Made by a program: the position numbers and the translations under genes. Under the pieces are notes generated by a model that had not been told where the DNA came from, searched no databases, and saw only the letters and a program-made list of their open reading frames with translations. From positions 1-42,636 of IMG/VR virus record IMGVR_UViG_3300030116_003614: a DNA stretch of 42,636 nucleotides; one strand, given 5' to 3'. The stretch is from a virus. Below, piece after piece: positions 25,925 to 42,201 of the stretch (position 1 is the first letter of the stretch; each line of letters opens with the position of its first letter).

Positions 25925-26263
25925 CATCATCTCTTTAATCTTTGACGCAAATCTTTTTATATATTCATAGCCAATTGATGCGTAACCACCATTATCGATA
26001 TAAGAATCTTCGTGCAACGGATTGTAAGATCTTCTAACAAGCTTTTGTATTTCGTTAAATGCAACAACATCTGTAGCCACGAATTGATTGGGTTTTCTCC
26101 AAGGTGCGTCTAAGAACAACTCCATCATCTTTGCCGTCTTTTCGATAACCTCCATAGGATCGCCATATTCATTGTTTCTTTTATTGGCCACAATGTCAGC
26201 AACTTTATGACAAAACTCCTCTCGTGGCGTTATATCGCTTTTAAAATGGGATTTCATCTTCAA
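25907..26263 (-). CDS. DUF6378-like protein
   Basis: A protein of 118 residues from TTG 26263 (AGGAGG 5 bases upstream) or 116 from ATG 26257. The sequence NNEYGDPMEVIEKTAKMMELFL, DVVAFNEIQKLVRRSYNPLHEDSYIDNGGYASIGYEYI matches the phage family DUF6378, small helical proteins with a MazG-like metal-binding pattern. A nucleotide-related role has been suggested for such proteins but is not established. It is the last gene of the early minus-strand operon, and its start lies inside the acidic tail codons of the gene before it. Confidence 0.72.
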   Translation of the reverse strand: MKMKSHFKSDITPREEFCHKVADIVANKRNNEYGDPMEVIEKTAKMMELFLDAPWRKPNQFVATDVVAFNEIQKLVRRSYNPLHEDSYIDNGGYASIGYEYIKRFASKIKEMMKKRSN

Positions 26264-26813
26264 CTATTCCTCCTTTAATTTCTGTTATTTCCGTGATCTC
26301 GGATTTCGGAAATGTCTTTTTCGCTTCTTTGACAAATCCATTATTCTCTTCATAAGATTCAATGATCCGTATAACTTCACTCATGTTATAAATCTTGTAA
26401 CCATCATCGACATACATAGCTTTGTGGTGATCATTAATAAAAGCGAACTTTTCTTGGTTATCTGATATCATATACCAGACTTTATCTATTTCTGGTTTAT
26501 ATCCTCTTTCAATAGCTTCTTTTTCAAGAATCTTGTAGCCACGTTCTAGATCTTCACACTTAGCTACGATTTCATTGATACTCGCTTCTGATTTCAATGC
26601 GTTATCCAGATTTAATCTTGCCTGTTTAAATCTTGATGCAGTTTTTGGACTAACCAGAATAGGCAAAGAATCTATTCCCCATTTCTGATCATATTCTCTT
26701 GCAACAGTATCCAAAGCGTCCAATGTTGCATTAATGACTTTATCTCTTTGCTTACTATCAAAGAAACCTGGAGAATTTTTTAGTTTAACCCAACTACCTT
26801 TAACAATAGTCAT
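26241..26813 (-). CDS. Replication-associated protein with SSB-like C-terminal tip
   Basis: A 190-residue protein starting at ATG 26813, behind AAGGTGG; a GTG three codons earlier overlaps that site. The body has no OB-fold pattern I recognise (charged helices 20-90, then FAFINDHHKAMYVDDGYKIY). It ends GGIVEDEIPF, close to the E. coli SSB tip DDDIPF that recruits replication and repair enzymes. Position beside the origin candidate and downstream of the primase-polymerase/helicase supports a replication role. It could be a divergent ssDNA-binding protein or an adaptor that mimics SSB. Confidence 0.65.
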   Translation of the reverse strand: MTIVKGSWVKLKNSPGFFDSKQRDKVINATLDALDTVAREYDQKWGIDSLPILVSPKTASRFKQARLNLDNALKSEASINEIVAKCEDLERGYKILEKEAIERGYKPEIDKVWYMISDNQEKFAFINDHHKAMYVDDGYKIYNMSEVIRIIESYEENNGFVKEAKKTFPKSEITEITEIKGGIVEDEIPF

Positions 26814-26848
26814 ACAAGCCACCTTTTAGGTTTACTGATAGCAACAAA

Positions 26849-27057
26849 CCACCTAAAGGTGGTGTTGCGAAAGTAACACCTAGGGGGTATGGGGGGTTTA
26901 CTTTCGCATTACTTTCGCACAATTTCGCATACTTTCGCATATTTTTAGCCTTTTTCATTTTTTACTTTCGCAGAATTTGCCCTAAAACAGGGGTTACTTT
27001 CGCTTATTTAAGCCAAATATGCCCTTACTTTCGCTTTTTTGGTTTTGCGAAAGTAAC
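26849..27057. other. Iteron cluster, candidate replication origin
   Basis: Nine copies or near-copies of TTACTTTCGC[A/T]: plus orientation at 26898, 26909, 26929 (ATACTTTCGCA), 26962, 26994 and 27025, a partial one at 26921, and inverted copies at 26866-26877 and 27046-27057 at the two flanks. The last direct and inverted copies form a hairpin (arms TTACTTTCGC and GCGAAAGTAA). A G-rich motif CCTAGGGGGTATGGGGGG (26879-26896) and the dyad ACCACC/GGTGGT (26849-26864) lie at one end. The cluster lies between replication genes and partly inside the 3' end of a short gene. Confidence 0.82.
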
Positions 27058-27191
27058 GCTTTTTCCAACTTATCATTGACTTTATTAAGCAAAATACCAA
27101 GAGAAGTTATGTCCTCTTGCATTTCTTCCAGATCCTTATCCATCTGTTGTTGTAGGTATATTAATTTAGTTATTTCTTTTTTATAAAACAT
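26994..27191 (-). CDS. 65-residue coiled-coil protein overlapping iterons
   Basis: Starts at ATG 27191 behind AGGAGCGACT. Residues 5-48 are a coiled coil (ITKLIYLQQQMDKDLEEMQE, LGILLNKVNDKLEKALL), and the tail SESKGIFGLNKRK is basic. The codons of the last 20 residues contain three iterons, so the tail sequence is partly dictated by the origin. It sits directly downstream of the primase-polymerase gene. It could be an origin or helicase accessory factor; no family recognised. Confidence 0.65.
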   Translation of the reverse strand: MFYKKEITKLIYLQQQMDKDLEEMQEDITSLGILLNKVNDKLEKALLSQNQKSESKGIFGLNKRK

Positions 27192-27199
27192 AGTCGCTC

Positions 27200-29359
27200 C
27201 TAGTCTGGTTGTTTAACGACACGCAAACCTTTGAGGTTTTTATGTCCGTCTAATGTTGATACTTGTATATAGCCTTGATCCAGCCATGCCTGTAGGTAGT
27301 TCTTAGCTGCTTTACTAGGCATACCGAACTCTAATTTAAGCCACGCAAGGAATGATCTTTGCGTGTTATTGCCTATCGCAAAAGGTTGTTCATTGTTCCA
27401 CCTTTTCTCGATCTCGTTAAATACTGCAAGTGTTTGTGTTTTATCTAGTTTAGCTGATGCGTCTAATATAGATTCAACTTCTCCTGTACGATCTATCAGT
27501 AAACCACCTTTGTCTCTTATAAAGGTATGTGTAGACATATCAGCTTGATCATTAACTTTCACAATACCTCCACAAACAGATACACCTTGCCCAGCTTCAA
27601 ATCCCATTTTTTGTGCTATAACGATTTCATCGTTTTCTGGCATATTCCATAATCCGTATACCCATCTTGCTCCGTCTACAAGAGCCGTAGTGCCACGAAT
27701 AGATTCTCTTGCTTGTGTAGACTTACGGATAGAAAATGTGCCGTCCTTACGCATATGATGACTTACAAGGACGTTACCATTTATAGCAACGCATAACTCC
27801 GACATAAGCGACCACCAGAATTGAGCAGCTGCTGGATCTGTATTGATATCTGCATGGGCGAAAGCTTGCAATGGATCGATAACAACCAGAGCAACGTCTC
27901 CCATATCTAGTAATTGTTTTCGTACATTATTGTAAAATTCTGTAGCCGTGTATTGTCCTTGAAAATTTGTAATAAAAGGATTTGTTCCACCAGCGTCTGG
28001 CATAGGTATAACAAAAAGATTATCCTTTGCTCTTTCTCTCAGCAAATCGTTTGATATACTTTCTATTCTTCGATGCATTGATGATGCGCTATCTTCTGCA
28101 CCAAAGAAAACAACTTTGCCGTAATGCGTAACCTTACCACCAAACGCAAGTTCAGTATGCATAACTTCATCGCCACCAGCAATCTTTAGCGCCAAGTCTA
28201 ATAATATATAAGATTTACCAAGACCACCAATTGCAGCAATGAGTCCTGGCACTCTTACAGGAAGTATATTTTCTATTAACCATTCTTGTTCTGGTGCTTT
28301 ACCCTCGTAACGCTCCATTCCCCAATCGGATATATTGAGGTGAAAAGCCGTTGGCACAGGAGCGACCAAGGCCAACGACTCTTCAGACACTTGAATACCA
28401 TTTGGAGGAGCTTTATCCAAGTGTTTTTCTGATGCTGGTTCAACACCATGCAATATCTTTAATTCTTTTCTGTTTGCTCTTTTGATTTGATAAGCTGCTC
28501 TTTGCTTAAATAATTCTATGCCACGATTATCATGTGATAATGTAAGACCTCTTGCTTTAGCTTTACGTTCATATATAGGCCAACATTCATCGACAAGATC
28601 ATCTACTGTAGGCAATACGCCTTTGATTCCCCACCATGATCTAATTGTAGCTAATATAAGCTTAACCATGTATCCCTCTCGACCATCAACAAAATCGCCA
28701 AACATATTTGTTTCACCATTTTGCAAGGATTCAGATTGATAATTAGGTGTATCTAACAACTCAACTAACCATTCTGGACTTTCGTGCATATCGGCATAGT
28801 GTGCTACTTTGTACACATTGCCAGATTTGTGGTTACTTGGAGCGACTACAATAAAGCCACCCTCTCCTCTTGTATCTATTCCAGATCCAAGTGTATTCTT
28901 TCCTGTAATAATTCTTTTATCTTCTGGTGCTTTAAATAAATAATGTCGTCCACCACCACCTGTCATTTGCTCTAATGTTTCTGGAAAATCATCGTGAGCC
29001 ATGTTCAGATCCATTAATGAATCTGCTCCCTCTTTTCCCTCTGCCGTATCGACATCTACGGCAAACACATTGCCAGACACTTTGCCTGTAACAACGCCAA
29101 TATTATAATTTTTGTATCTGCCATTAAACCACATTTCAAGCGTATGTACATCTGCACATCTTTCTTGGAAAACAACCCAGCGATTAGGCGCTGGGTGTTT
29201 GCCAGGAGATGGGCAATTATGTCCTTGAGAACAGGAACAACTTCCGTCCTCTTTGACATAATGAACAGGAACAACGCTAAAGCCTTGTCCATGCCACCAT
29301 TTTGCCCAATCAAGCTTGGATTTAGGTTCTATATCAGATTTCATCATCGCTGAATACAT
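27200..29359 (-). CDS. Primase-polymerase/helicase (prim-pol N-domain plus RepA-like ATPase)
   Basis: About 719 residues from ATG 29359 (weak GAAGAG site); starts at 29347 or 29344 are also possible. The N-terminal bifunctional primase/polymerase domain has NIGVVTG and FAVDVD (metal Asp102/Asp104), GGGGRHYLF (134-142) and DTRGEGGFIVVAPS (from 162), plus a Cys/His-rich insert (CSCSQGHNCPSPGKHP, about 41-56). The C-terminal ATPase resembles hexameric RepA/AAA_25 helicases: Walker A GGLGKS (378-383), Walker B VVIDP with Asp495, then a VSHHMRKDG motif. It would prime, and possibly copy, DNA at the iteron origin. No other polymerase is visible. Confidence 0.9.
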   Translation of the reverse strand: MYSAMMKSDIEPKSKLDWAKWWHGQGFSVVPVHYVKEDGSCSCSQGHNCPSPGKHPAPNRWVVFQERCADVHTLEMWFNGRYKNYNIGVVTGKVSGNVFAVDVDTAEGKEGADSLMDLNMAHDDFPETLEQMTGGGGRHYLFKAPEDKRIITGKNTLGSGIDTRGEGGFIVVAPSNHKSGNVYKVAHYADMHESPEWLVELLDTPNYQSESLQNGETNMFGDFVDGREGYMVKLILATIRSWWGIKGVLPTVDDLVDECWPIYERKAKARGLTLSHDNRGIELFKQRAAYQIKRANRKELKILHGVEPASEKHLDKAPPNGIQVSEESLALVAPVPTAFHLNISDWGMERYEGKAPEQEWLIENILPVRVPGLIAAIGGLGKSYILLDLALKIAGGDEVMHTELAFGGKVTHYGKVVFFGAEDSASSMHRRIESISNDLLRERAKDNLFVIPMPDAGGTNPFITNFQGQYTATEFYNNVRKQLLDMGDVALVVIDPLQAFAHADINTDPAAAQFWWSLMSELCVAINGNVLVSHHMRKDGTFSIRKSTQARESIRGTTALVDGARWVYGLWNMPENDEIVIAQKMGFEAGQGVSVCGGIVKVNDQADMSTHTFIRDKGGLLIDRTGEVESILDASAKLDKTQTLAVFNEIEKRWNNEQPFAIGNNTQRSFLAWLKLEFGMPSKAAKNYLQAWLDQGYIQVSTLDGHKNLKGLRVVKQPD

Positions 29360-29915
29360 TCGACTCTTCTGTTTTAGGTTCTTCAACGATAGTTTGATCT
29401 TTTGGCATACCACCATCTATTTCAGATGGTCTGTCAATCCACTTAACAATTTCAAAGTTTGGTATCTTTGTAGATCCCTTACCTATTTTTGTCGGTGTTG
29501 ATTTCGTAATTTTTACAGCTGGTACTTTGCCTTTACCAAAATCCTTTTCGCAATGATCGTAAAGATTTTTAATAAAGGTAAATACGCCAACAGCATTTGC
29601 TGATAATTCCCTTACAGGTTCATCATCAAATAGCTTTGTGCTGTAAAATTTTACATTAAAACCTTGTTTGTATTCATCACTTGGTTTTAATTCTGCACCT
29701 CTTTTCGGATCATTATTTGGCCAGACAATCCAATCTCGTCCACCAGCTAACTTTAGCCAACCAAGTTGTACATTTTCAATATCAATAATAACAGGACTAT
29801 CCCATGTTATATCAATAAGATCTCCAGACACGCTGGATCTAGACCATTGGTCTAGTTCAGCAGAGAAACGGATAAACGCTGCTCCTCCACCCTCTTTTAT
29901 AGTTTCTAACGGCAT
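29334..29915 (-). CDS. Candidate ssDNA-binding protein of prim-pol module
   Basis: A 193-residue protein directly upstream of the primase-polymerase gene, overlapping its start. The N-terminal 120 residues are beta-rich with aromatic residues (AAFIRFSAELDQW, ITWDSPVIIDIENVQLGWLKLAGGRDWIVWP, FNVKFYSTKLF), followed by a Lys/Pro/Thr linker (KVPAVKITKSTPTKIGKGS) and an acidic tail ending EESNVFSDDEI. An OB-like body with an acidic tail would fit a phage SSB. GGAG lies 7 bases before the ATG. I do not recognise the exact family. Confidence 0.62.
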   Translation of the reverse strand: MPLETIKEGGGAAFIRFSAELDQWSRSSVSGDLIDITWDSPVIIDIENVQLGWLKLAGGRDWIVWPNNDPKRGAELKPSDEYKQGFNVKFYSTKLFDDEPVRELSANAVGVFTFIKNLYDHCEKDFGKGKVPAVKITKSTPTKIGKGSTKIPNFEIVKWIDRPSEIDGGMPKDQTIVEEPKTEESNVFSDDEI

Positions 29916-29916
29916 T

Positions 29917-30315
29917 TCAATCTCCTTTTTTTCGCCTTTTTAGCGTTCCAATATCTGGTGGAACGAACCAGCCACCACGGAGTAGTGATGGATATATACG
30001 CTTTAGCCAACGCCTAACGTATAATTTAGTGTAGGTAGGTTCGTATCCAGCAAGGATACAAACCTCCTCAAAATCATCTTTGTTATGCCATAACCAATTA
30101 ATGGCACGTTTTGCAGAGTTTCTATATTCAGCTTTTGGTGAGTACAGTTTTTCAGCGTCTTTAAATTGTTGCAGCAATACGTTGTACCAAAGTATCTCGT
30201 ATGGTGATTTGTCGGTTTCATCTTTATCAATATCAAATTTGTCATATGCATATCCACGTTTCAGTCTTTCTGGTTTTGATTTACGGAAAAATGTTTTGTC
30301 TGATGTCATCTGCAT
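29917..30315 (-). CDS. Conserved phage protein of replication operon
   Basis: A 132-residue basic, helical protein. The region EYRNSAKRAINWLWHNKDDFEEVCILAGYEPTYTKLYVRRWL resembles a recurring phage family with the pattern AixWL...DFxxVCxLAGxxPxxV, of unknown function and probably nucleic-acid binding. The C-terminus is basic (TLKRRKKGD). It overlaps the nuclease gene at its 5' end and lies 1 base from the next gene. Confidence 0.68.
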   Translation of the reverse strand: MQMTSDKTFFRKSKPERLKRGYAYDKFDIDKDETDKSPYEILWYNVLLQQFKDAEKLYSPKAEYRNSAKRAINWLWHNKDDFEEVCILAGYEPTYTKLYVRRWLKRIYPSLLRGGWFVPPDIGTLKRRKKGD

Positions 30316-34707: not shown

Positions 34708-37700
34708 TTATTCATTTGGTGTCTTATACTTCTTTGATGGTCGCCCTCTCTTGCCACGGATATATTTTTCTCCGTAGATAAGTTCTAGTAAATCGTTTAC
34801 TCTTGCACGTTTAAAATCTTCAGATGACAAATACATTAAACCTGGCGCACCTATTAAAGCTGTTGGTGGAGACATAGGTATTAATGCGTATCCAGTAGAT
34901 AAAACTGGATTTACAGTTAAGTTCCATAATCCTACTAAAGCATTATATTCTGACGCTAATGTATTTTCGCTATTATTAATGTTAAATCCATACTCGATAA
35001 TAGGCTCTAAATTTTGTGCTGCATATCCAGCTGTACCAATTAATGTGTTAGCTAAATCTCTTTGATATTTTAATCCTGTAACCATTTGGTAAAATGGATC
35101 AAACGCACCTGTGAATCCAGATCTTGCAAAAGCTAATGGGAACAAATAATCTTTAACAAACTTAACTGCATCTTTATCGTTATCTTCCCATTCTCTATCA
35201 AATCTTTCTTCGTTAAAAATTAATTCTCTAACAGTTGATACAAGAAAATGACCAGCAAACAAAGTCATAACAGCTGGTGCAATACTTGCTGTAACATATG
35301 CTGTTGCATCTAATGTCGCTTTCTTTTTTGACGCACCTAATTCTTTTGATATTTTATATTCTCTTCCAACTTTTCTTGCCATTCCTTTTAAAACTTTATC
35401 TTGGAAAGAATATATAAATGAAGTTATACCATATACAATTCTTCCTAATGGATTTTCTGCCCATAATGGTCTATCTGCTATTCTTGGATCTTGTATTGTT
35501 TGATCTGTAAATCTTTGTATAGCGACAGCCAACTGCAATCCCATATCACTATATTGACCAGCATCATTCATAATGTCTGATAGTTCTGGTAACTTTGTTT
35601 TACCTTTTACCCTTGCTCTTTTTCTTAACCTTGTAGATGTAAAATCATTAAAGTCTAAAATATAATCTGCAAACTGATCTATTGTTTTATCTTTTACACC
35701 AAAATCATTTAATACTTTTTTTGCTTTTAATTTTTGTCTATCGCTTGTTGGATTCTTATATTCATAAGCCATCTCACTTATAAATTGAAATCCTATTGCA
35801 GCTGCTGATCTTCTTTGTGCATTTGTCATTCCTGTAAGTTTTGTTTTGTAAAAAAACTTTTGTGTTAATCTTTGTAAATTAGGATTATCTACAAACGCAC
35901 CACCTATACGATTTGTTAATATATCGCCAACTTCTGGATCATCAATAACACCTAAGATTCTTGCAAATTGTTGTCGCAATCTGACATCTTCTTTATTACC
36001 ACCTAATTTTCTTATGCCAGGAAATTCTTGTAATGTTTTTATAAAAGCCATCATGCCTTTGGCTGGACTTTCTGAAGTAATAGCTGTGGTAAATGGCTCT
36101 GCAATAGAAGCTATAGGCGCTCTTACTAATAATGTAATAGACATAATAGCAGATAAATAATTAGCAGCTTTATCTCCAGCCATGCCAAGAGATCTGTTTG
36201 ATCTAGATTTGCCTGTAATAAAATCAATTGTTTTAGCAAATCGATCAGCGTCTTTTGGATCTACTGCTAATTGTCTTAATCTTCTTTTAACTAAATATTC
36301 TATATAATCGGTGTATTCATCTTTAGGTATTCTACCCTCTTTATCTTCTTGAGGTATTTTGTTTTTCCCAAATCGTCTATTAAACTCTGCTCTTCTTGTT
36401 GCGCCTAATATGTATTGCTGTATGTTTTCTACAGGATCTGAAATATAAAATTGTTCTAACAATGCATCTGCTTCTGGTGGTAGAGTTCTTTTCTTTGTAA
36501 AGTTACTTTGTGGCGTACCAACTAATGTATCTCCAACTTGTGCTTCTGTAATAGCATTGAACCAATTTGTAGAAGAAACAGTACCAAACAAATCTCGCAT
36601 TTGATCAAAAAATTCTGCGTATTCTTCCTCGATGTTTGCAATAGCTTCGTCTAATTCTGCTTGTGCATCTTCTGCTTTTTTTGTATCACCATCATCATTT
36701 GCTTTCTTAATAACAGCTTTAAGACCTTTTATTTTTTTCCATTTTGATGATTGCACAAAGTTTATATACTCTTCACTATTTACAATACCTAATCTAGAAT
36801 CTTGTATAAATTTTATAACAGCTTCCATTTGATCAAGACTAGCTACATTTATATCTCCAATGTCTTTATCAAAAATAACTTCGTAGACTTTTTTTGCTTG
36901 CTGAAAAAATTTTCTGCTTTGAGCATTCACCATTTCTTGATCAAGTAATCTTTGCATATAACCAGATTCTGCATATCCAATATCTAATCCAGATCCTCTA
37001 ATATATTCGTAAATTTGATTCATCAAATTACGCATTTGACCAGCTGCTTTCTTCACATTGTCTGGTATGTTTCTTTGATCTTTAATTTGACTTGTTAGTA
37101 TGCTTCTAAGCAATGAAATTTCGCCATCACTCATTCCATTTATATCATTTAAAGAAACAATTTTAGCTAATTGTAAACCAAACTTTCTTGCTTCTCTTGT
37201 TTGTGCATTAGAAAAATTATCGCCCTCTGCTTGTGATTGAAATTCACCACCTGTTTGTGTTGCTAAGTTTTGATACAAATATTTCATAACAGGATTGTTT
37301 GGGTATCGTTTCATAATAGATTTTAAGATACCTTGTTTTTGGTAAAACAATGGAGAAAACAATATATCTTCAATAGACTCAAAAAGCTTTCTGCCAAGTT
37401 TTTTTTGTCTTACATTTTCAGTTAATTGTTTTCTCTTTTCTTCCATACGTTGTTTAAATTTTTTATGATCTTGAATAGCTTTACGTTGGTCTGCAAATAA
37501 ACCTTTGCTTTCTTGTTCTTCAACTTCATACATTTTTCTAACATCTATTCGTGTATCTTCTGACGCTGTTTTGCCAACTTCTCCATCACCTAATGTTGTT
37601 TCTGCTGCAATTGCATCTATAAGATTTCTCATAGCACCAAATATCTCTAATCGATCTTCAGCTTTTGGAAAAGTCAACGCCATTCTTGAATCTAAAATTT

Positions 37701-40700
37701 TAGGTAAATCGTCAATGCTTGGATTGCTTAACTGTTCTTTTGTAACATTTAATTGTTCTAATGTTATTTGATAACCATCATTTGTTTTAGCTAAAAAGTC
37801 TGCGTCCATTTTATTTAAGGCCATATGGTATGCTGTAAAAGCTTCTCCAACTCTTGCAAACATTTCATATGAACTTGCCCAATAGTCTTTACTTTGCCCA
37901 TATATTGGTGCAAAAAATTCTGCGTCTTTTCTAAACTGTGTTTTGGCTACAGATCTTGCATTAGCTGATCCACCAAGTATTCTTTCTTTACGTTTTATTA
38001 ATATTTGTAATTGTTTTTCTGATTTTGTTTTAGCAATCTTATCATCAATTTGTTTTAGCTTTAATGCTTCATCTGCTTTGTCTTGAAACATTGCTCTTAC
38101 TAATAAAGCATAAGCATCTTTTACATTTGAAGCTTCTATCTCTGCGCCTTTTCTTGTTAATGCAGACATTAATGGGTGTGGATCATCTATGTTATCTACG
38201 TTTGCGTGTTTCTCGAACAAGTAATGATCTAAAGCATGAAACCATTCGTGAGCAAAACTGTTAACTCTTCTAGGCACAGTTATTGTTTTTGTGCTTGGAC
38301 TATAAGATCCATATGCTCCTAAAGTTTTAACCATATTAAAAGTTAATGTTCCGTCTAATCCAATAGCTTTGTATGGTAAATTAAAAAAATTAGCTAGTGC
38401 AGATAAATTATGAAATCCAGTTAACAGTTGATCGACAGCTTCTTTTGTATTGGCGTTACTAGACTTTGTAACTGACTTCATGCCAAATCTTTCGACAAAC
38501 ATTTTTTGCAATATTTTAAATTGTCTTTCGATTGGCAAGTTAACTGCAATATCTGGATCGACACCAGCTGCTTCAAACGCAGAAAATATTAACGCTGTTT
38601 TGTTTCTTTCTGCAAGTTTGTCGACAAGTGTTCCTGGCTTTTCGACTCTTTGGTTTTCGTAATCTTTTTCACTTTTAATTTGTAAACTTTCGGTAGCAGA
38701 TTCTTTGGTAGCTTTCCTATCTGGTTCAATGGTTGCATCTTTTAAATCCTCCTGTTTAGTGTCGAATTTCTTTTTTGCTGCTTCAAGTATATCAATAGCT
38801 TCAAAAAATTCCGACATTAAATTGTCTCTATAAGTATATGCTGCTGTTAAATAGGCATTACCCTCAAATCCTTTTCTAGAATTTGTTAGTTTTGATCTAG
38901 AAAATTTTTCTGACAAACCTTTAAATAAAGGTGAATTTTTTAATTTATTTAATTCTTCATCTAATTTATTTGTTGTTACTAATTCACCAACAGTTTTATC
39001 AATAATAACATATGTATCACCACTTATCTTTTTTAGTGTTTTAACGTATGACTTAAAAGTTCCATCTTTATGTTTTAAAAGATTTTGTTCTTTTGCTTCT
39101 TTGTAACCTGGAACTGAATTACTGTCTTTTATTTTTATAGTAACTGTAGTGTCAAAAGTAACATCTTTTAACTTTTCTTGTTTTGACTCATCTTCTTTTT
39201 GAACTTCATCACTTCTTGTCTTAGTATCGGTTCTTTGTTTTTGTTCGCTACTCTCAGTAGGCTTTGCATCATCAGATCTAGTGCTTCCTTTGAGGAGGTC
39301 TGGGGTTTCTTCGCCATCTAATTTGCTCCTTGCAGTTTTTACAACATCTTCTGGTGTTGTTGTATCTTCTAAAAATCCACCAACTTGTTTTCTTTCAGCT
39401 TCATCGACATAAAAACCTAACAACTCTGTCATGTATTTTTGTGATTTTGCTCTAGTTAATTTATCATTGTAAATTGTCTTTATTAATAACTCAACCATAG
39501 GATCAAGATTTTGTATTATGTCTGTTTGGTTGACAATATCACTAACAGCTTGATTGTTTTTTCTAGCATTAGATATTTTTAAGGCCATATCTGTTAATTG
39601 ATTAGTAATATCAAACTGTGCTGGAACTGTTCCATTGCTAATTAAAGATTTAAGATTTGCAAATCGAGGTGCTACATTAAGTAAAGCGTTTGATATAGCT
39701 TTGATGTTGTCATCTGTGCTGTCAATCATAACAGCTAATGCATCAGTATTTTCATATGCAGAAGCTAATATAGCGTTTTGTATTCTTGTAACGCCCTCTT
39801 TTGTTAAAACTCCATCTCTACTAATATTGCCTTGTTCGTTTTTAGTAACAACTTTATCGATAAAAGATTTTACAAATTGCTGGTTATCTAAACTTGTTAT
39901 GTCGCCACCTTTAAACTGCTGAATGATGTCTGAACCCATTGCTTGGCTATCTCTTTGCGCTCTTTCAGTAGCTGACATCTGAGCAATAATATCTCTATTA
40001 GATAAATCTGCTATTTCAACTAATTCTTCTTGCGTAATATTGTCGTCCAACACACGCACTAATATAGGGTTTTCTATCCCAGATAAATCTTGGCCTGTAG
40101 TTTCAGATATTCTGTTTTTATATGTATTGTAATTTTCTTTAAAATTATCTCTTGCTTCTTTTAATGATAAAACACGACCATTACCAGATATAATTGTTCC
40201 ATCTTTTGTTATAATCGGTGCGCCTGTATTTGTCGTTGGACTTTCTAACAATTGTTCTGGATCTAGATTTGACGCTCTTTCTTTAGATAAGACTTCTGAC
40301 TCTTTTAATGTTCTGTCTCTTGGCTGTAAATCACCAGACGCTGCTTTTAATTTATCTAAATCAACAATTATTGTTTTAACATTAACTTCTTTTTCAGAGT
40401 TTGGCGTTCTAATTTTCTTTACATCACTTTCGTAATCTACAACTTTATCTATATCTGCAAGCGTTTCTTTGCTTGTCAAAACCTGTTCAACTGTAGTTGT
40501 ATTAGCAATAATGCCATCTATGTTGTCCTTGATTTTATTTGCTTTATCTAACTCAGCTTGTGCTTGTGTTGTATCTTGATTTGTTTCTCTTGATAATTGC
40601 AATTCTAAATTAATTAAATCAATAATTTCATCTAATTCTTTTTTAGGATTTTCGCTTTTTACAATATCATCAATAACTACAACAATATCATCTGCGTCTT

Positions 40701-42201
40701 TTTTACCATCAAGATCTCTTGTAGCAATTGTAATGGTTTTATTATCAACTTCTCTTGTCTGGCTTGCAGACTCCTCGGAGGATTGAGAAGTCTGCAACTC
40801 TGAATCTTCCTCGAATGTAGCTTTTAATTTATCTACTACTTCTTTTTGTTTTTTAAATCTGTTTGCAGCAATAACATTTGTACCTATCTCTATTGCTCCT
40901 GTTGGGAATTCAGCTATACCCTCTAAGCCAACTTCTCCATAATTTATTTCGTCTTTTAATCCCTCTGCAACTTGTAAAAATTGTCCTGTAAAATCACCAG
41001 CACTTCCAAGTAATCCTTGTCCAGCTAATTCTGCTGTTGAAGCGCCAACTACTGCTTTGTTTGTTGCACCAGATTTTATAACTGGAGAAACTAATTTACC
41101 AGCTAAACCCATAGACAAAGCATCAAAAACTGCAACTGGTATACCATATAAAGCTGCACTCTTTTTTGCCTTTGCGTAAAAAGCTGGATCAGTAAGTTTA
41201 GCCTGTACAGCTTTTTCATCTGTCATATCTACGCCAGATTGCGCTAATTCTTGATTTATAACATCAGCATAGGTTGTACCAAATGTAACAATACCAGCTG
41301 CTCCAGCACCAACTAATGGACTACCAGCAACAGATCCAGTTATAAACACACCTAAACTAGCTAAAGATGATGGCAAAGATTCTCCAACAACACTTAATAC
41401 TGCTGATGGATTTGTAGCTATAGCAGATAAAATGTTTTTCCAACCTTTTGCATCTACAATTTCTTTTAAACCTTTTTGTATATCTGGTGGCTGTGTTGGA
41501 GATACTCTGTTTAATTCTGTTATAAGTTTTACAGTTTCAGAAGCATTGTTCCAACCAAGCGTCAAACCTAATTGTGCCATGCCTTGATTGGCTCTTACAA
41601 ATCCTCGTGTTAATGCATTATTAGGTAATCTTGAATCTTCTGGAGATAATAAATTAGATCTAGCTATTAAATCTATAGCAATGTTATCATCTACTTTAGC
41701 TTCTCCCATTGGAGTTTTAAGAAAAAAGTTTCCTGGCGTACCACCTACACCACTACTAACAGGATTTATATTTATGTTAGGCGTTGTAATAGCATCTGGC
41801 CTTGTAATAATATCTGTTAATCTTTGCTTTTCATTGTTAAAAGCAATGTCATCTTGTTCTGCTTTAAGTCTATTTTGTTCTGCAAGATTTTCGTTTTGTT
41901 TGAAATTAAAACTTCTACCTCTTTGATTTCTTGGATATTCAGTTCTTTTGTTCTTTAATCCTTGATCGCTAAATTCAACTGAATCTACAAATAAATTTTG
42001 TTGTACAGGCTGTTTTGTTTCTATTGGCTCTGGTTTAAAATTTGCGTTACCAAATGTATCAATACTATAATCGTTTATTCCATCACTTAATGTCGTTATG
42101 TTTGCTGGTGGAGCATTGTCTGTATTATAGTCTGATTTTTCGTCATCTTTGTTGTCAAACTTATAATTTGGATTGCCAAATGTATCGACACTATAATCCA
42201 T
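34708..42201 (-). CDS. Giant polyvalent/ejection protein (ParB-like and HEXXH domains)
   Basis: A 2497-residue protein at the T7 gp16 position. The N-terminus repeats DYSVDTFGN/DYSIDTFGN at residues 2 and 44, followed by Asn/Gln-rich linkers. Residues about 250-390 contain hydrophobic, Gly/Ala-rich segments (SSLASLGVFITGSVAGSPLV). A DdrB/ParB-like nuclease-type domain spans about 600-760 (ISGNGR at 671-676; ILVRVLD; ADLSNRDI). A coiled, charged linker follows. A zincin-like domain near 1250-1400 carries HEWFH at 1318-1322. The rest is long helical spacer, ending with amphipathic and hydrophobic regions (about 2280-2440). No lysozyme motif is seen. It probably enters the host with the DNA. Confidence 0.85.
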   Translation of the reverse strand: MDYSVDTFGNPNYKFDNKDDEKSDYNTDNAPPANITTLSDGINDYSIDTFGNANFKPEPIETKQPVQQNLFVDSVEFSDQGLKNKRTEYPRNQRGRSFNFKQNENLAEQNRLKAEQDDIAFNNEKQRLTDIITRPDAITTPNININPVSSGVGGTPGNFFLKTPMGEAKVDDNIAIDLIARSNLLSPEDSRLPNNALTRGFVRANQGMAQLGLTLGWNNASETVKLITELNRVSPTQPPDIQKGLKEIVDAKGWKNILSAIATNPSAVLSVVGESLPSSLASLGVFITGSVAGSPLVGAGAAGIVTFGTTYADVINQELAQSGVDMTDEKAVQAKLTDPAFYAKAKKSAALYGIPVAVFDALSMGLAGKLVSPVIKSGATNKAVVGASTAELAGQGLLGSAGDFTGQFLQVAEGLKDEINYGEVGLEGIAEFPTGAIEIGTNVIAANRFKKQKEVVDKLKATFEEDSELQTSQSSEESASQTREVDNKTITIATRDLDGKKDADDIVVVIDDIVKSENPKKELDEIIDLINLELQLSRETNQDTTQAQAELDKANKIKDNIDGIIANTTTVEQVLTSKETLADIDKVVDYESDVKKIRTPNSEKEVNVKTIIVDLDKLKAASGDLQPRDRTLKESEVLSKERASNLDPEQLLESPTTNTGAPIITKDGTIISGNGRVLSLKEARDNFKENYNTYKNRISETTGQDLSGIENPILVRVLDDNITQEELVEIADLSNRDIIAQMSATERAQRDSQAMGSDIIQQFKGGDITSLDNQQFVKSFIDKVVTKNEQGNISRDGVLTKEGVTRIQNAILASAYENTDALAVMIDSTDDNIKAISNALLNVAPRFANLKSLISNGTVPAQFDITNQLTDMALKISNARKNNQAVSDIVNQTDIIQNLDPMVELLIKTIYNDKLTRAKSQKYMTELLGFYVDEAERKQVGGFLEDTTTPEDVVKTARSKLDGEETPDLLKGSTRSDDAKPTESSEQKQRTDTKTRSDEVQKEDESKQEKLKDVTFDTTVTIKIKDSNSVPGYKEAKEQNLLKHKDGTFKSYVKTLKKISGDTYVIIDKTVGELVTTNKLDEELNKLKNSPLFKGLSEKFSRSKLTNSRKGFEGNAYLTAAYTYRDNLMSEFFEAIDILEAAKKKFDTKQEDLKDATIEPDRKATKESATESLQIKSEKDYENQRVEKPGTLVDKLAERNKTALIFSAFEAAGVDPDIAVNLPIERQFKILQKMFVERFGMKSVTKSSNANTKEAVDQLLTGFHNLSALANFFNLPYKAIGLDGTLTFNMVKTLGAYGSYSPSTKTITVPRRVNSFAHEWFHALDHYLFEKHANVDNIDDPHPLMSALTRKGAEIEASNVKDAYALLVRAMFQDKADEALKLKQIDDKIAKTKSEKQLQILIKRKERILGGSANARSVAKTQFRKDAEFFAPIYGQSKDYWASSYEMFARVGEAFTAYHMALNKMDADFLAKTNDGYQITLEQLNVTKEQLSNPSIDDLPKILDSRMALTFPKAEDRLEIFGAMRNLIDAIAAETTLGDGEVGKTASEDTRIDVRKMYEVEEQESKGLFADQRKAIQDHKKFKQRMEEKRKQLTENVRQKKLGRKLFESIEDILFSPLFYQKQGILKSIMKRYPNNPVMKYLYQNLATQTGGEFQSQAEGDNFSNAQTREARKFGLQLAKIVSLNDINGMSDGEISLLRSILTSQIKDQRNIPDNVKKAAGQMRNLMNQIYEYIRGSGLDIGYAESGYMQRLLDQEMVNAQSRKFFQQAKKVYEVIFDKDIGDINVASLDQMEAVIKFIQDSRLGIVNSEEYINFVQSSKWKKIKGLKAVIKKANDDGDTKKAEDAQAELDEAIANIEEEYAEFFDQMRDLFGTVSSTNWFNAITEAQVGDTLVGTPQSNFTKKRTLPPEADALLEQFYISDPVENIQQYILGATRRAEFNRRFGKNKIPQEDKEGRIPKDEYTDYIEYLVKRRLRQLAVDPKDADRFAKTIDFITGKSRSNRSLGMAGDKAANYLSAIMSITLLVRAPIASIAEPFTTAITSESPAKGMMAFIKTLQEFPGIRKLGGNKEDVRLRQQFARILGVIDDPEVGDILTNRIGGAFVDNPNLQRLTQKFFYKTKLTGMTNAQRRSAAAIGFQFISEMAYEYKNPTSDRQKLKAKKVLNDFGVKDKTIDQFADYILDFNDFTSTRLRKRARVKGKTKLPELSDIMNDAGQYSDMGLQLAVAIQRFTDQTIQDPRIADRPLWAENPLGRIVYGITSFIYSFQDKVLKGMARKVGREYKISKELGASKKKATLDATAYVTASIAPAVMTLFAGHFLVSTVRELIFNEERFDREWEDNDKDAVKFVKDYLFPLAFARSGFTGAFDPFYQMVTGLKYQRDLANTLIGTAGYAAQNLEPIIEYGFNINNSENTLASEYNALVGLWNLTVNPVLSTGYALIPMSPPTALIGAPGLMYLSSEDFKRARVNDLLELIYGEKYIRGKRGRPSKKYKTPNE

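Follow-up and report, generated by a model that had tools for sequence, protein, structure and literature searches.

In the IncQ plasmid RSF1010, oriV combines iterons with hairpins near the origin; the iterons have a separate protein, RepC, and helicase and primase are separate proteins as well. In the staphylococcal SaPI Rep and SCCmec Cch2 systems, by contrast, it is the helicase that recognises the repeats: its C-terminal domain reads short copies located immediately after the helicase gene. SaPI5 Rep contains a primase domain too, and priming occurs inside the SCCmec origin (PMC7581432). The replicase of phage NrS-1 is a PrimPol that begins synthesis at a defined motif in the template, TTTGGTTA or GTG (PMC8718748).

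Here we analyse a repeat array in a 42,636-base IMG/VR record without end repeats (the whole stretch is called the window below), whose terminase and capsid have their nearest counterparts in Rhizobium phage RHph_N65 and Microcystis phage Mae-Yong1326-1 (47-52%). A 2497-aa ORF of this window (34708-42201, minus strand) matches phage proteins of unknown function. The genes of the replication operon otherwise overlap or nearly abut, and the array region, 180 nt long, is the only gap above 8 nt between them. The operon runs from a Holliday junction resolvase, an exonuclease, a 132-aa HTH-like protein and a 193-aa SSB-like protein to a PrimPol/AAA_25 helicase, a 65-aa ORF, the array, an SSB-tip protein and a 118-aa protein. 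This gene order bears out the first-pass annotation, which had placed the array between a PrimPol/RepA-like helicase gene and an SSB-tip gene. The features referred to below are as follows.

26241 to 26813, minus strand: SSB-tip protein of 190 aa with a DEIPF end, a conserved gene beyond the array.
26827 to 26882, minus strand: imperfect hairpin with the right-hand inverted iteron in its 5' arm, from predicted folds of relatives.
26866 to 27057, no strand assigned: candidate iteron array of five exact, one one-mismatch and one partial direct copy, with an inverted copy on each side.
26867 and 27047: inverted exact copies of TTACTTTCGC.
26883 to 26896, minus strand: C-tract element, reading CCCCCCATACCCCC on the helicase strand and separating the last direct iteron from the right-hand inverted one.
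26898, 26909, 26962, 26994 and 27025: direct exact copies of TTACTTTCGC.
26921: direct partial copy, AATTTCGCA.
26929: direct copy with one mismatch, ATACTTTCGC.
26994 to 27191, minus strand: 65-aa coiled-coil ORF with its C-terminus encoded by three iterons, found in the close clade only.
27200 to 27526, minus strand: helicase C-terminal winged-helix domain (residues 612-719), proposed iteron reader (AF2, fold matches, iteron type following the domain).
27200 to 29359, minus strand: 719-aa protein with Prim-Pol (PF09250) and AAA_25 RepA-like helicase domains by Pfam (RSF1010 RepA 1g8y, E=4e-11), proposed initiator.
29334 to 29915, minus strand: 193-aa protein with an acidic DDEI tail, a probable phage SSB from tail and genome position.
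29917 to 30315, minus strand: 132-aa HTH-like protein, conserved in the operon, a rival candidate for the reader.

Nine repeats had been claimed, six direct plus one partial with inverted copies bracketing them, and the copy positions in the window agree with this: seven copies of TTACTTTCGC are exact (five direct, two inverted), one has a mismatch and one is partial. The array spacings are 31/32/33/20/11, with the inverted copies at 21 and 32 bp. No exact copy occurs outside the array in the 42.6-kb window, and a reversed-pattern control of TTACTTTCGC gave zero matches there. The G-rich block reported at one array end could be located at 26883-26896, the hairpin at the array end is predicted at 26827-26882, and the three copies said to be coding (26994, 27025 and 27047) indeed code for the end of the 65-aa ORF, whose last residues before the stop are LLSQNQKSESKGIFGLNKRK. 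GC skew, which had been proposed as a check, tracks gene orientation and is uninformative, marking no origin. A nucleotide search in phages gave zero matches.

The locus is like SaPI Rep and Cch2 in having repeats behind the helicase's own gene and, as proposed here, a C-terminal reader. Those proteins belong to other helicase families, from staphylococcal islands, and Cch2 has three 5-nt iterons, whereas the phages described here have an AAA_25 RepA-type helicase joined to a PrimPol, and their arrays hold about 8-10 copies in helical phase and are accompanied by a C-tract and a hairpin; the SaPI Rep family domains DUF927 and Primase_Cterm/D5_N were absent by Pfam (E up to 0.001), with AAA_25 and Prim-Pol found instead. 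The phage helicase domain is homologous to RSF1010 RepA, but in contrast to RSF1010 the primase, the helicase and the proposed reader are one protein, and no separate RepC initiator was identified among the operon proteins by Pfam, PHROGs and PDB sequence searches. With NrS-1 the phages share a PrimPol replicase, while differing in the array, as the available text describes no iteron array for NrS-1 (PMC8718748). The suggestion of "plasmid-like" initiation is a loose one, as a helicase initiator that reads iterons behind its own gene is nearer to SaPI Rep and SCCmec Cch2 (PMC7581432) than to a separate plasmid Rep protein.

Multiple direct repeats near a replication gene, the mark of an iteron origin, are present here, which raises the question of how far they are conserved. 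A search with the 719-aa helicase gave 48 relatives (53-100% identity), and alignment searches enlarged the set until 81 distinct versions of the region ahead of the SSB-tip gene were available; overall, the comparison spans about a hundred relatives. At least four CGRAART sites lie between the helicase and SSB-tip genes in 69 of the 81 regions, with a mean of 9.1 sites per region compared to 0.25 in shuffled sequence, so that the repeat cluster is kept beside the same replication genes. L155 has no clear array, and in L190-L192 an array is absent behind the helicase. At L156:11300-11560, 15-bp tandem repeats (AGATCGGC-type) extend over a long run that is unrelated to the array. Searching genome contigs with the single helicase protein gave zero matches, and searching them with the alignment gave one remote match, a Thauera MAG (30%). 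The distances from one direct copy to the next group around 10-11, 20-22, 31-33 and 42-43 bp, with a best period of about 10.8 bp and a vector strength of 0.83 against a maximum of 0.24 in 2000 random sets, although the 228 spacings do not amount to 228 independent events because many vectors are related by descent. As read from sequence, the array spacing follows the DNA helix, which would put the copies on the same face. When the motif itself shifts, it does so in concert over all copies of an array (GCGAAAGTA, GCGGAAGTA, CCGGAGGTA and other forms), and the lattice of spacings persists.

An inverted copy follows 31-33 bp past the last direct copy in 62 of 64 cases and at 43 bp in the other two, and the interval contains a C-tract (CCCC..ACCCC, with the consensus ACCCCC[AG]TACCCC) in 62 of the 64 relatives where it is placeable. 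We compared arm pairing in 30 hairpins, all from outside the window's own clade: arms scored a mean of 21.3 with their own partner, 17.0 (sd 2.5) with the arms of other hairpins and 13.3 when shuffled, and several pair types occur per position, i.e. the arms carry compensatory changes. The mismatches (1 G.T vs 4 A.C) are too few to decide between DNA and RNA and give no sign of RNA.

An important question is which protein reads the iterons. The C-terminus of the helicase is modelled as a winged helix (AF2 mean pLDDT 80), with 6lui as the top VIA row (Z 8.3, rmsd 2.7, 71 aligned), suggesting a domain of DNA-binding type, even if a shared fold alone is not proof of DNA binding. To follow this domain separately, two profiles were made from the window family, one for the helicase core and one for the C-terminal domain. 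L163, L165 and Wolbachia WO score 180-216 bits with the core and below zero with the C-terminus; L163 and L165 carry GTTCCC arrays; in WO the repeats amount to a weak TTCCT cluster. Among 19 further relatives of L165 (in the members scored, core 207-225 bits and C-terminal similarity absent), 16 have 6-11 GTTCCC and zero CGRAAGT in the 320 bp behind the helicase, and in the other three GTTCCC-family loci an array is absent behind the helicase. The reverse combination is seen in RHph_N65, EBPR siphovirus 5, L194 and L195, with distant cores (13-15 bits), C-termini scoring 16.2, 26.7, 31.0 and 29.9 bits, respectively, and repeats of the CGGARRT type behind the helicase (GGCGGAGAT, GGCGGAAGTA, ACGGAAGTC and CGGAAGTT, in the same order); the last three were examined after RHph_N65 had suggested the rule. 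This double dissociation indicates, at the level of sequence comparison, that the iteron follows the C-terminal winged helix across differing cores, although, since each group shares ancestry, the cases form two clusters and do not count as many independent instances. The EBPR-type helicase alone, searched in viral contigs, found none. A possible further member is Vibrio phage 1.076.O (L172), in which a DnaB-like helicase is followed by TTGTCCG repeats and a C-tract/hairpin.

The position of the array points the same way. It lies directly downstream of the helicase in the window, its relatives, L149/L162, RHph_Y3_1, the Thauera MAG, RHph_N65 and EBPR siphovirus 5, with small ORFs in between in some clades. 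RHph_Y3_1 and the Thauera MAG contig have GTTCCC arrays behind the helicase; those of L149 and L162 (GACGGCTA and GTGCGCAA) are unrelated in sequence to the window's and start right behind the helicase stop, about 400 to 1,500 bp off the SSB-tip gene. The 65-residue protein, put forward earlier as a possible initiator, is not a general reader because it is restricted to the window's clade (14 loci), and the array is independent of it. Not all observations favour C-terminal reading: L029 and L048 have 97% identical C-termini, yet their iteron flanks differ. Upstream of the SSB-tip gene these two carry 11-bp tandem iterons, CCGGTGGGTGT and GCGGGGGGTAT, that have only a short core in common. No single C-terminal residue cleanly tracks the A/G iteron switch in the main family. 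Covariation of single residues with this switch showed up at a few columns in more than one protein, position 684 of the recognition helix among them; it was set aside in view of exceptions (the window and L054) and the lack of a phylogenetic correction.

Other readings of the array have to be weighed against these data. That the locus is an iteron origin read by the 132-aa HTH-like protein or the SSB-tip protein is unlikely, though the least improbable of them: both proteins are conserved beside the array, and the HTH-like protein diverges fast, with a few residues common to the two A-type iteron clades. However, the iteron type follows the helicase C-terminus in phages with different cores, the L149 and L162 arrays lie behind the helicase rather than at the SSB-tip gene, and the SSB-tip model lacks a recognisable DNA-binding fold. 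That model is a helical bundle with a conserved DDEIPF-type tail; the protein has no PDB match at E 0.001, a fold search returned uncharacterised phage proteins only, and its VIA rows, being at the level expected of helical bundles, were not interpreted. It may possibly mimic the SSB tip and recruit the partners of SSB. The 132-aa protein has no confident family match and the 193-aa SSB-like protein no family match, and PDB and Pfam searches with both families gave nothing usable; in L110/L045 the two are fused.

A multi-site operator for transcription or translation of the SSB-tip gene, instead of an origin, would suit the many relatives in which the array ends shortly before the SSB-tip start codon, and the hairpin just upstream of that gene. 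We consider this improbable, given that in L149/L162 the array keeps its place directly behind the helicase and is separated from the SSB-tip gene by about 400 to 1,500 bp, that this gene sits within a tightly packed operon, and that the hairpins, on small numbers, lack the G.U excess expected of RNA. Least probable is a role in packaging (pac/cos) or partition, for which the sole point is that direct-repeat arrays are known at sites of these kinds: 4 to 14 kb separate the array from the terminase genes, the array tracks the helicase C-terminus and not the terminase, and no partition gene was found in the subset of ORFs searched.

The array is very probably the start site of phage genome copying, and it is likely to be an iteron origin that the adjoining primase-helicase recognises through its winged-helix C-terminus. 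The earlier proposal of an iteron origin with the helicase fusion as initiator gains from the conserved array beside the same replication genes, from the finding that even distant phages have an array right after their primase-RepA helicases, and from a repeat sequence that follows the C-terminal winged helix. A separate polymerase was likewise not found in the subset of the window's ORFs searched. Conservation, helical phasing, the C-tract, the paired hairpin arms, helicase adjacency and the match between iteron and C-terminus are comparative findings; that the protein binds the DNA directly, that the duplex melts, that priming takes place at the C-tract/hairpin and that the site acts as an origin is inferred. 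The winged-helix C-terminus would bind the iterons on the same helix face (10-11, 20-22 and 31-33 bp), which would assemble the helicase on the DNA; the duplex would open near the C-tract/hairpin end, and there the fused PrimPol would start synthesis. The role suggested for the C-tract/hairpin is guided by the sequence-specific priming of NrS-1 PrimPol (PMC8718748) and by priming in the SCCmec origin (PMC7581432).

While the logic is known from SaPI Rep and Cch2, these marine and rhizobial phages differ in the combination, in which a RecA-fold helicase of the RepA type is fused to a PrimPol and the phased array is joined by a C-tract and a hairpin; a literature search found no description of such an origin class, with subscription journals mostly outside its coverage. 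More tentatively, these loci could represent a widespread, undescribed class of phage origins consisting of iterons, a C-tract and a bulged hairpin, in which one PrimPol-helicase-winged-helix protein would both recognise the origin and prime at the C-tract/hairpin, and in which exchange of winged helices has swapped the iterons. Origins are unknown for most environmental phages, and the array gives a recognisable signature for PrimPol/RepA-type replicases. The prediction that the winged-helix tail sets the iteron sequence could be tested in the cultured Rhizobium phages RHph_N65 and RHph_Y3_1. If true, recognition, unwinding and priming by one protein would have arisen in a helicase family whose textbook model, RSF1010, has its initiator as a separate protein, RepC.
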